Shown: positions 13,759 to 57,514 of the stretch, in pieces
Layout: every line of letters starts with the position of its first letter
Position numbering within the stretch: the stretch's first letter is position 1
NCBI GenBank assembly: GCA_030448185.1
Contig: JAUJNL010000019.1
Coordinates: forward strand, 18,369 to 82,368
Source: Cytophagales bacterium
GTDB taxonomy: Bacteria; Bacteroidota; Bacteroidia; Cytophagales; 172606-1
DNA: 64,000 nucleotides
Reading direction: 5' to 3'
Program-made: the position numbers and the translations under genes
Notes under the pieces: generated by a model
Told to the model about the DNA's origin: nothing
Databases searched by the model: none
Seen by the model: the letters and a program-made list of their open reading frames with translations, nothing else

Positions 13759-13904
13759 TAGTACACCGCCAATTTAGTTTTTATAAAATCGTGCATCCGC
13801 ATTTGGAATGCGGATGCACAGAGAAGCGCATTTTAAATACGCCTTTCCGAAGTTCCGCATTGAAAATGCGGAACAACTCAAAAAATTAAATTGGCGGGGT
13901 ACTA
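13759..13904. repeat. MITE/REP-like element: 18-bp inverted ends around three hairpins
   Basis: The element is bounded by 18-bp inverted repeats that match at 17 of 18 positions (TAGTACACCGCCAATTTA at 13759-13776 and its complement at 13887-13904). Inside are three hairpins: 13791-13819 (13-bp perfect stem, loop TGG), 13826-13842 (7-bp stem with one G-T pair) and 13852-13874 (10-bp perfect stem, loop GAA). All three have a GCATT-NNN-AATGC type core. No protein is encoded. This looks like a small non-autonomous mobile element or a structured REP cluster. Confidence 0.75.
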
Positions 13905-27830: not shown

Positions 27831-28265
27831 TTAAGAATTCGGCAGGGTTCTGATTTTTATATTCCGGTAGTGAACCGTATCGCCGTGGCCCTGTAACAGA
27901 ATATGGCCTTGGGGCATTTCGCCAAACCTTTCAAATCCTTGTATTTACTGGCGGCCACCAGCTTCCGGAGCTCATTGCTACCCCTTTCGTACTCAAGCAC
28001 TTTGCTGCCATTCAACCAATGTTCTACGTGGGTGCCTCTTACCCTAATTTTTACTGCATTCCATTCTCCTATTCTCCTACGGGTTTTGCTTGTTTATTGT
28101 TGGCGGGGATCAGGTCGTACAAAGAAGCAAGAGTCCGGTTGCCATTGACGCCTAATTTTGCATCGGCATGGTTCGCATGATCGATGATCTGATATTCTAA
28201 CCCAAGATAATTACCAGTTTGGTTCGGAAAATTATTTAAGTAGTTCTTTACAATTACTTTAGACT
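27831..28265 (-). pseudogene. 5'-truncated DUF1080 3-keto-disaccharide hydrolase
   Basis: Reading the minus strand gives [51 protein letters not shown] and [20 protein letters not shown], the C-terminal two thirds of a DUF1080 (3-keto-disaccharide hydrolase) domain, ending at 27831. An eight-base duplication near 28070 (GGAGAATA repeated) breaks the frame. The 5' end is lost at about 28265, just before the hairpin and IS element at 28271. The missing N-terminal part is not found on the far side of the insertion elements, so DNA was deleted. Confidence 0.75.
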
Positions 28266-28270
28266 ATCCT

Positions 28271-28305
28271 CTTAAATGTCATTCCCTCCGGGAATGACAT
28301 TTAAG
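28271..28305. repeat. Perfect 16-bp hairpin at the left edge of the IS5-like element
   Basis: CTTAAATGTCATTCCC and its exact complement are separated by only TCC. Its CATTCC/GGAATG core resembles the other small hairpins in the window. The right arm runs into the target duplication and first base of the adjacent IS element. Confidence 0.7.
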
Positions 28306-28403
28306 AAACTGTTTTAAAAGGGTAATGGCAGAGAAAAATAGGCTAGGGAGTAAAGTACTCAAAGAGGTTAAGTTTGTAGTGCCAACTAACAGATAAAACC
28401 CCA

Positions 28404-44383: not shown

Positions 44384-47302
44384 CTAGGTCAGAGACTGGA
44401 TTTCATTAGTTGGGCTATTATCGGCATCAGCTGGCAGAACGGCTGGTCTCCACTGATTAGCTGCACTATTCCAAGTAAGTACCTGTCCGTCGGTAGCACC
44501 CATTTGCCCTATTTTTTCCCCGCTGACTGCTCCAGCCGCAATTACGGGATTAGGATAACTCCCGGTCAAGTCACCTCCTGCAGGACCAGTAGCTGGTCCA
44601 ATTAATGAGATCCCACTTCCCCAGTTACCTCCAGACTTAGGGCCATACAAAACGCTGGAAGAAGTATTCAGGTAGAAATCTCCGTCTGATCCTATAGAGG
44701 CAGCAGGCACTGTTGTACCACTTAGAATAGTCTTTCCATCCACCCCATTACTGCCAGCAGCACCCGCCACTCCTTGAGGTCCGGCAGGTCCCTGCGGACC
44801 AGTTGCGCCAGCAGGCCCTTGCGGTCCACTTGCACCGGCAGGTCCGATGGCTCCTACAGGTCCTTGTGGCCCTATTTCTCCTTGTGGTCCAACTGGTCCT
44901 TGAGCACCTGTATCACCTTTATCTCCTTTTACTCCTTGAATACCCGCAAGCCCTTGCGGCCCTATTTCTCCTTGTGGTCCGGTATCTCCCTTGTCCCCTT
45001 TTGCTCCTTGAGGACCAACGGGACCAACTTCACCTTGTGGTCCCTCGGGTCCCTGAGGACCAGCAGGTCCTGCTATTCCAGGATCCCCCTTATCTCCTTT
45101 TACTCCCTGCAGACCAGCAGGACCCTGTGGGCCTTGGATTCCCTCAGGTCCTACTTCCCCTTGCGGACCAACAGGGCCAGCAGGCCCTTGTGGACCCACT
45201 TCCCCTTGTGGTCCCTGCGGGCCAGCGGGGCCTTGAGGTCCGGTGTCTCCCTTGTCTCCTTGAGGTCCAACCGGTCCTGCTAAACCAGTATCACCTTTAT
45301 CTCCTTTTGATCCTTGGATACCTGCTACTCCCTGCGGACCGATAGGCCCTATTTCACCTTGTGGTCCTTGCGGACCAACTTCACCTTGGGGACCAGTTGC
45401 GCCAACAGGGCCAGCAGGCCCTTGTGGACCCATATCGCCTTTATCCCCTTTCAAACCCTGAGGGCCAGTTAACCCTTGAGGTCCAACTGGTCCTTGAGGA
45501 CCAACATCTCCTCTATCACCCTTGTCCCCTTTTGCTCCTTGAGGGCCTACCATCGATACACCGCTTCCCCAATTGCCAGCTGTTTTGGGTCCGAACAAAA
45601 CATTATTACTAACATTTATGTAAAAATCCCCATCAGCTCCTGCACTTCCAGTAGGGTTACCAGTTCCGTTTAAGATAGTGCGTCCATCAGCTCCTGCTGA
45701 ACCAGTCGCACCCGGGCTTCCAGGAATTCCTTGCGGTCCCTGGAGGCCAACCGGACCTTGCATTCCTTGTGAACCTGTTGGTCCTTGAGGACCAATTAAA
45801 GAAATACCACTTCCCCAACCACCTGATATCTTGGGTCCAAACAGCACACTGGTATTTGTATTAATATAAAAATCCCCATCATTACCGGTGGTACCAGGAT
45901 CAGTTGTCCCATTTAGAATTGTCCGTCCGCTTATACCCGCAAGCCCTTGCGGCCCTATTTCTCCTTGTGGTCCGGTATCTCCCTTGTCCCCTTTTACTCC
46001 TTGTGGCCCGGTTAACCCTTGTGGGCCTTGGATACCCTGAGGCCCAATATCTCCCTTATCTCCTTTTGGCCCTTGCGGTCCGACTTCTCCCTGAGAACCC
46101 GTATCTCCTTTTGCTCCCTGAGCTCCGGCAGGCCCTTGGGGGCCAGCTATTCCTTGTAATCCCTGATCGCCTTTGGCTCCCTGCGGCCCCATCAATTCAA
46201 TTCCTGTTCCCCAACCACTTGCGGATTTAGGTCCGAAAAGAGTAGCGGTACTTCTATTCAAATAGAAGTCGCCGGTAGTTCCCTCATCGGTTGGGTTCGC
46301 AATGCCACTTAAAATAGTCTTTCCATCTGCCCCATTACTACCAGCAGCGCCAGCCACTCCCTGAGGCCCGGCAGGTCCGATGGCTCCTGCGGGTCCTTGT
46401 GGCCCTATTTCTCCTTGTGGTCCAACTGGTCCTTGAGCACCTGTATCACCTTTATCTCCTTTTACTCCTTGAATACCCGCAAGCCCCTGCAGCCCTTGCG
46501 GTCCGGTTGCACCAGTCGGACCAACTGGACCAACTTCGCCTTTATCCCCTTTCAAACCCTGAGGGCCAGTTAACCCCTGCGGGCCTACTTCTCCTTGAGG
46601 GCCAACATCTCCTTTATCACCCTTGTCCCCTTTTGCACCAGTCGTACCAACTTCGCCTTGTGGCCCCTCGGGTCCCTGAGGACCAGCAGGTCCTGCTATT
46701 CCAGGATCCCCCTTATCTCCTTTTACTCCCTGCAGACCAGCAGGACCCTGTGGGCCTTGGATTCCCTCAGGTCCTACTTCCCCTTGCGGACCAACAGGGC
46801 CAGCAGGCCCTTGTGGACCCTTCAAACTCATCCTTAATTGATACAATTCACCGACCCGTTCATATACTTCTCCATTTGTTGTATTCAGATAAAAATCACC
46901 TTCCTTTCCAATTGAGTTGTCTGGAAGGCTGACTCCGGTTCGCCAAGTGGTTCCAGTGGCGGTAGTACCGTTTCCTCCCAACTCAATCCACTGGGTATCT
47001 TTCCAGTAATAGAACTTCTTTTCAGAAGCGTCAAAAACTAGTAAACCATTTTCTTTAGGGGAGAGGGAAGTAGTAAATGCAGGTGCCGTACGCTGAGCCG
47101 TAGTTAGACGGGGAACCAGCAATCCTTGATTGCCAGCAGGAGAAACCAGGTCTAACACAGCGTAACTATTGGGCTGGTTCGTTCCTATTCCAACCGAATT
47201 TTGCCCTTTCGCCTCTTCATACGTCCCGGATAATACCATTAAGCAAAGAATAGCAAAAAGGGTCTGAGAATAACTCAGTTTAACGGAGTAAAAATGATAC
47301 AT
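44384..47302 (-). CDS. Giant collagen-like (Gly-X-Y) repeat surface protein, N-terminal part
   Basis: A 972-aa frame with a signal peptide ([19 protein letters not shown]) and an N-terminal module common in Bacteroidota fibre proteins ([20 protein letters not shown]). From about residue 155, collagen triple-helix repeats dominate ([20 protein letters not shown]), with many GDKGD triplets. Four copies of a 45-residue spacer interrupt the collagen blocks, each like [20 protein letters not shown] followed by LFGPK and a [13 protein letters not shown] end. The frame stops at a TAG at 44384, six codons before the in-frame continuation, so the full product would be about 1,590 aa. It is likely an extended surface filament or adhesin. 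Internal 180-bp near-identical duplications show recombination. Confidence 0.85.
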
Positions 47303-57437: not shown

Positions 57438-57454
57438 ATGCGCTAATATGAACT

Positions 57455-57498
57455 AAAACAAAATGCGGAAGGCCTAAAAACCTTCCGCATTTTGTTTT
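57455..57498. terminator. Bidirectional terminator, 18-bp stem
   Basis: AAAACAAAATGCGGAAGG and its exact complement are separated by CCTAAAAA. It sits between the stop of the PVC-type gene and the stop of convergent hslV, with A and T runs on both sides, so it can end both transcripts. Confidence 0.85.
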
Positions 57499-57514
57499 AC
57501 AGACCTAAATCATT

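Follow-up and report, generated by a model that had tools for sequence, protein, structure and literature searches.

The 146-bp element at positions 13759 to 13904 of the window, i.e., the whole stretch of 64,000 nucleotides analysed here, is best read as a non-autonomous MITE of the IS630 type with a captured cluster of RAYT-type REP hairpins inside, a reading to which a probability of about 0.8 is assigned. The initial annotation had likened it to a MITE or to a REP cluster that RAYT-type or IS transposases mobilise, and the evidence supports both at once, with a shell ending like IS630 and an interior made of a clade-type hairpin array. The element itself is real and mobile. In this finding, two known kinds are nested, a RAYT-type REP array lying within an IS630 MITE. 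The source assembly (Bacteroidota) comprises 6.4 Mb in 207 contigs and is 75% complete. The following features make up the element:

13759 to 13904, no strand: whole element, family A, 146 bp including its ends; eight genome copies are bounded at exactly these ends and two more are truncated
13759 to 13760, no strand: left copy of the TA target duplication; an outer TA lies on both sides of every two-ended copy, and the flanks of the C159 copy give an open response-regulator frame when joined at one TA
13759 to 13776, plus strand: left terminal inverted repeat TAGTACACCGCCAATTTA, agreeing at 16 of 18 positions with the left end of the IS630 copy at C73:30544
13791 to 13819, no strand: REP-like hairpin GTGCATCCGCATT-TGG-AATGCGGATGCAC, which is module hairpin H3 read on the minus strand
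13826 to 13842, no strand: middle hairpin GCGCATT-TTA-AATACGC (H2), with one mismatch in the window copy
13852 to 13874, no strand: hairpin GTTCCGCATT-GAA-AATGCGGAAC, which is module hairpin H1 read on the minus strand
13887 to 13904, minus strand: right terminal inverted repeat TAAATTGGCGGGGTACTA, with the right TA at 13903 to 13904

The coordinates and layout first proposed for the element proved correct, including inverted ends that pair at 17 of 18 positions, and no ORF of at least 60 aa was found inside it, as had been claimed. The hairpin at 13791 to 13819 has a stem of 13 bp and that at 13852 to 13874 one of 10 bp, each closed by a 3-nt loop, and the hairpin centres follow each other at 28 to 29 nt. 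The description as three tight hairpins with one core holds exactly for two of the three only, because the middle hairpin has a single C/A mismatch in the window copy; another copy (L005) features the matched AATGC. Folded as a single strand, the region reaches -77.8 kcal/mol compared with -37.1 ± 3.7 kcal/mol for dinucleotide shuffles (z = -11; 0 of 200 shuffles as good). Moreover, the H2 stem differs among element families by compensatory changes (GCG/CGC, GGG/CCC, CAG/CTG), and over the whole structure three pairs changed on both sides, a value as high in 9 of 500 shuffles. Such a very stable fold with paired changes in the middle stem would also suit a structured non-coding RNA gene or a cis-regulatory RNA that was repeated by chance. 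Nevertheless, this explanation is highly improbable: the Rfam 15 covariance models gave no match above the gathering score in the 64-kb window, both strands fold alike, copies occur in both orientations between unrelated flanks, one of them sits within a gene, and losses, inversions and 19-nt enlargements of hairpins occur freely.

The mobility of the element becomes evident from its copies and their insertion sites. Searches, as distinct from a full repeat annotation of the genome, yielded 10 near-full copies of family A (91-100% identity, 146-148 bp) on 10 contigs, in both orientations and with unrelated flanks, eight of them with both ends and two truncated. TA flanks both outer ends in all family A copies with two ends. 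In the C159 copy, the insertion splits a response-regulator gene, and an open frame is regained when the flanks are put together with only one TA. In seven genomes of the same family or order, this gene runs without interruption through all 55 of the 55 aa tested; in the own genome, it is present as two separate pieces (aa 1-40 and 32-55). The C159 insertion is thus an IS630-type insertion with TA duplication. The counting of copies and the comparison of ends and target duplications, as suggested in the initial annotation, accordingly revealed a multi-copy element with constant ends and duplicated TA. Single-copy occurrence without relatives in sister genomes had been named there as the outcome that would speak against the proposal; its first part fails in the own genome, which holds the 10 near-full copies and about 78 more module loci, yet the family A element was absent from the 58 relatives searched, two of the same genus included. 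At two loci, L007 (C205) and L017 (C70), truncated copies of families A and B lie between two copies of a terminator-like hairpin of 36-40 bp (CCACCAAGCTCAACA..GTTGAGCTTGGTGG; AAAAAAGGACTGCGGCCGACAGTCCTTTTTT), and this flanking duplication reaches well past any target duplication.

The ends of family A consist of TA followed by GTACMCCGCCAATTTA and match two full-length copies of the IS630 family in the own genome, which identifies the shell as a MITE derived from IS630, with duplication of its TA target. These copies, each of about 1.3 kb (C73:30544-31843 and C126:55961), were recovered by searching the genome with the 18-bp end, so that the transposase gene with the same ends which the initial annotation had recommended to look for does exist. 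Their ends read TAGTACAC(A/G)ACCAATTTA, and short and full-length elements additionally have subterminal bases in common on each side separately, with GTTTTTA past the left end and AATTAAATT before the right one. The two ORFs of the full-length copies match IS630 (NF033545), HTH_29/HTH_32 and DDE_3. Both copies are broken between their two ORFs, which disrupts the transposase frames, and an intact IS630 helper with matching ends was not among these two full-length copies found in the 75%-complete assembly.

Being short, non-coding and multi-copy, with ends shared with IS630 and a TA duplication, the element has the properties of a MITE. MITEs derived from IS630/Tc1 are about 150 bp long and ORF-less, have terminal inverted repeats in common with an IS630-family element, target TA and occur in multiple copies. 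Bacterial representatives have been named Correia/NEMIS, RUP and Nezha (PMC2817692, PMC3733652). The window element resembles these in its length of about 150 bp, the lack of an ORF, the IS630 terminal inverted repeats, the TA target and the multiple copies. In contrast to them, it encloses three RAYT-type REP hairpins in a phased array, where IS630/Tc1 MITEs contain leftover IS DNA or just one fold. A further difference from IS630/Tc1 MITEs is that this interior is also present in MITEs of other IS families.

The possibility that the whole element is a REPIN or BIME moved by a RAYT, with merely incidental terminal inverted repeats, has to be weighed against these ends. The interior is indeed REP-like, and relatives feature REP singlets and doublets without outer repeats. 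Nevertheless, the copies are bounded exactly by TA-flanked 18-bp repeats common to full-length IS630, the empty site shows a TA duplication, and other shells have 8-bp duplications, while a target duplication is not expected from Y1 transposases. This alternative is accordingly regarded as very unlikely.

The nested organization is illustrated by the distribution of the interior over several element families. A covariance model built of the three hairpins and their spacers detected 88 module loci in the own genome (149 hits with both strands counted), and the pattern CCGCATTN(3-4)AATGCGG gave 93 matches there vs. one for a reversed control pattern. The module is held in three types of ends, i.e., IS630-like (family A and also family C), ISKra4-like (family B) and those of a DDE_Tnp_1 IS (family E), and some modules are without recognisable ends. 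Family B comprises about 40 short elements of 112-190 bp with ends GGGTGTACGACAAA and 8-bp duplications (e.g., GGCTATCA, AGGAAAAG), and its full-length relatives of 1.2 kb encode an ISKra4-like transposase. Thus, family B shares its ends and the 8-bp duplications with an element of the ISKra4 family, whereas family A has IS630 ends, and only the interior module is common to both. Family C features IS630-like ends TARTACTACTTTAACAC and overlies family B, since remnants of family B ends sit just within its own. Family E has ends TGAGGGGYGGTC and 8-bp duplications; its full-length form of 1083 bp encodes an intact DDE_Tnp_1 transposase of 322 aa, and its short forms carry as many as four hairpins, in two doublets inverted relative to each other, the stem CGGATTTGTAATCCG among them. 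Every short element located by its ends contains at least one module hairpin compared with none in the full-length family E elements, a statement whose unbiased part comes from the end-pattern searches, because some of the loci had been collected with the module itself as the query.

Further variation was observed within the module. A 19-nt insert, AGCTTCGCTGAGAATAGTT or a near form of it, occupies a constant place in the loop of many H1 and H3 hairpins and of one H2 and occurs in families B, C and E as well as in free modules (e.g., L206 2016-2048, L033 1430-1462 and L183 314-346). Two copies of family B (L192 and L193, at C39:16437 and C138:5588) carry the stretch that lies between H1 and H3 in inverted orientation, as if by recombination between inverted hairpins. 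Besides, one family B element (L203 430-700, on C36) contains a long tandem run of AAACAACACGAACAAAGTTT units, with B-type ends 1.33 kb apart.

The window holds other structured or repetitive stretches as well. At 28236 to 28306 lies a dispersed repeat, TAAGTAGTTCTTTACAATTACTTTAGAC followed by a perfect 17-bp hairpin TCTTAAATGTCATTCCCTCCGGGAATGACATTTAAGA, and related stretches turned up five times or more among the sampled loci; in appearance it is another MITE shell, this one having a different (CCCGGAGGG) palindrome. Positions 44718 to 46820 of the minus strand contain long collagen-like Gly-X-Y coding repeats with an internal duplication of 1.6 kb. A perfect hairpin with a 19-bp stem (TAAAACAAAATGCGGAAGG..CCTTCCGCATTTTGTTTTA) at 57454 to 57499 is probably a bidirectional terminator.

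The class to which the hairpins belong was recognized by means of the relatives. Weak covariance hits in the 58 relatives, whose interpretation as chance matches was dropped on reading them, turned out to be hairpin arrays with different stems and the same apex (ATT-TGY-AAT) and spacing. Since REP arrays of a shared apex were thus present in relatives, the flanks of RAYT genes were tested. In a survey of 148 genomes of the order with NF047646, ATT-NNN-AAT hairpins were located beside 7 of 10 RAYTs in one clade vs. 0 of 17 others. On the RAYT tree, the hairpin label needs a single change, a number as low in 3 of 500 label shuffles, with moderate branch support (81/32). An alignment of the clade was then scanned against species-representative genomes, which yielded 146 relatives, 80 of which were kept. 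Counting ATT-NNN-AAT hairpins with a stem of at least 7 bp no more than 300 bp from the RAYT gene, 56 of these 80 members (in named genomes) have such hairpins, 39 of them on both sides. The hairpin density amounts to 4.37 per kb near the RAYT gene vs. 0.083 per kb at more than 600 bp distance, a 53-fold difference, and the centre spacing in the flanks peaks sharply at 28-32 nt. The H1 hairpin of the window element (13852 to 13874) has the same form as REPs beside RAYT genes, e.g., GTTCGACATTTGTAATGTCGAAC. The triple-hairpin layout that could not be named initially is hence a phased ATT-NNN-AAT REP array.

Like the hairpins of REP/REPIN/BIME and RAYT systems, those of the window element are short stem-loops (about 20-30 nt) in phased clusters. 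In contrast to these systems, the array is enclosed in, and apparently spread by, the ends of a DDE transposon, is not accompanied by a cognate RAYT found in the own genome, and has a 19-nt loop insert in many module copies. The hairpin feet read GGTT/TGTT in the window element and GCT(C/G) in the RAYT flanks, and the GTAG/GTGG foot of classical REPs is absent from the module hairpins. For RAYT subclass 2.6 of Bacteroidetes, GTAG is likewise reported to be lacking, and the REPs were noted only as "atypical" (PMC6006769); as far as that article cites it, this subclass corresponds to RAYT group 5 of Bertels et al. The clade proteins, with about 178 aa and the motifs NH.H and YIHLNP, fit subclass 2.6. 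Judged by length, motifs and host phylum rather than by a joint tree, the clade hairpins are probably the "atypical" REPs of this subclass, which the window hairpins resemble in lacking the GTAG foot while sharing the apex and spacing of the clade flanks.

The exact H1 sequence (GTTCCGCATTNNNAATGCGGAAC) had no match in any other species representative scanned, and the idea of the module as a widespread exact sequence was rejected in view of this and of the missing family A in the 58 relatives. REP clusters in relatives have inverted flanks of at least 9 bp in 4 of 13 cases vs. 6 of 156 mismatched pairs, which is suggestive of REP arrays within terminal repeats in other genomes, the four of 13 clusters being too few for a claim. 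The best case comes from a distant relative (G023; L126 1470-1590), in which 12-bp inverted repeats TGCTTTGGAAAG enclose two REPs of this class as a doublet; it is perhaps another REP inside a MITE.

The own genome encodes three RAYTs (L060, L061 and L063), each with a distinct set of flanking palindromes (GCGGAACTTAGTTCCGTG and GAGGAAGTTTCTTCCGC; GAGTCAGGTTTGAGAACCTGACTC; CGCTTGCCTTTGGCGAGTGAC and CAGAGGGCCTCTGG) and none belonging to the clade, and no RAYT flanked by the ATT-NNN-AAT class was found in this 75%-complete assembly. Therefore, the cognate RAYT is either absent from the genome or located within its missing quarter. All PF01797 hits were examined for a Y1/HUH transposase of the own genome as the mover, and this candidate was rejected, the RAYTs carrying different hairpins. 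The same applies to an IS200-like gene (L056), which lies near a degenerate family E copy but is flanked by the different CCCGGAGGG palindrome.

The failure to find a cognate RAYT in the own genome also speaks for an ordinary IS630 MITE in which snap-back duplication or selection for folding produced the internal palindromes independently, and these merely resemble RAYT REPs. In line with this, MITEs often fold, the GTAG foot is missing, and stems of the GCATT version are rarely found elsewhere. Such an independent origin is nevertheless considered unlikely, as the same module with its apex and phasing occurs in three unrelated IS shells and without recognisable ends, and the apex and the 28-32-nt phasing are those of RAYT-flanking arrays, with the 53-fold enrichment near RAYT genes.

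For the preferred reading, a captured REP cluster within an IS630 MITE, we infer the mover protein and the entry route of the REPs as follows, and any benefit of the hairpins to the element is conjectural. An IS630-family transposase acting in trans would bind the 16-bp ends, excise the element and insert it at TA, thereby duplicating the TA. Instead of IS630 sequence, the interior consists of three REP-like hairpins with ATT-NNN-AAT apex at about 29 nt from centre to centre, of the class found beside the Bacteroidota-specific RAYT (Y1/HUH) clade, probably subclass 2.6. REP DNA probably took the place of, or inserted into, the central part of an IS630 copy, and both a RAYT insertion into an IS remnant and a closing of IS ends around a REP are possible routes. 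After the capture, the element would have been spread by the DDE transposase and not by a RAYT, with the REPs riding along. Independent uptakes of the module would account for families B and E, in which it sits between ISKra4-type ends and between those of a DDE_Tnp_1 IS, respectively; family B was later overlain by IS630-like ends, giving rise to family C.

The occurrence of one REP class in the shells of three unrelated IS types suggests either that REPs often inserted into IS remnants and amplification followed, or that the hairpins are of advantage. A stronger version treats the REP arrays as cargo with a function: in this lineage, short derivatives of three or more unrelated types of transposon would each have gained this REP class on their own, and only the forms equipped with it would have become numerous, since phased hairpins aid the element. 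This version is rather doubtful. Possible benefits are, for example, that the two ends are folded together, that the element excises more readily while the DNA is single-stranded, or that transcription nearby is insulated. REPs, as substrates of HUH enzymes, and MITEs, as substrates of DDE enzymes, are regarded as distinct classes of small bacterial repeats, and if the functional-cargo reading were true, a convergent "REP-in-MITE" way of life would join HUH and DDE transposition. With one REP class in MITEs of three unrelated ends within one genome, it becomes testable whether the hairpins help the element or were merely captured. Moreover, a usable definition of REPs is obtained for the Bacteroidota RAYT clade, i.e., stems of 7-13 bp closed by ATT-NNN-AAT, every 28-32 nt. 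It is this definition of the REP class, together with the REP-in-MITE pattern, that deserves to be followed further.
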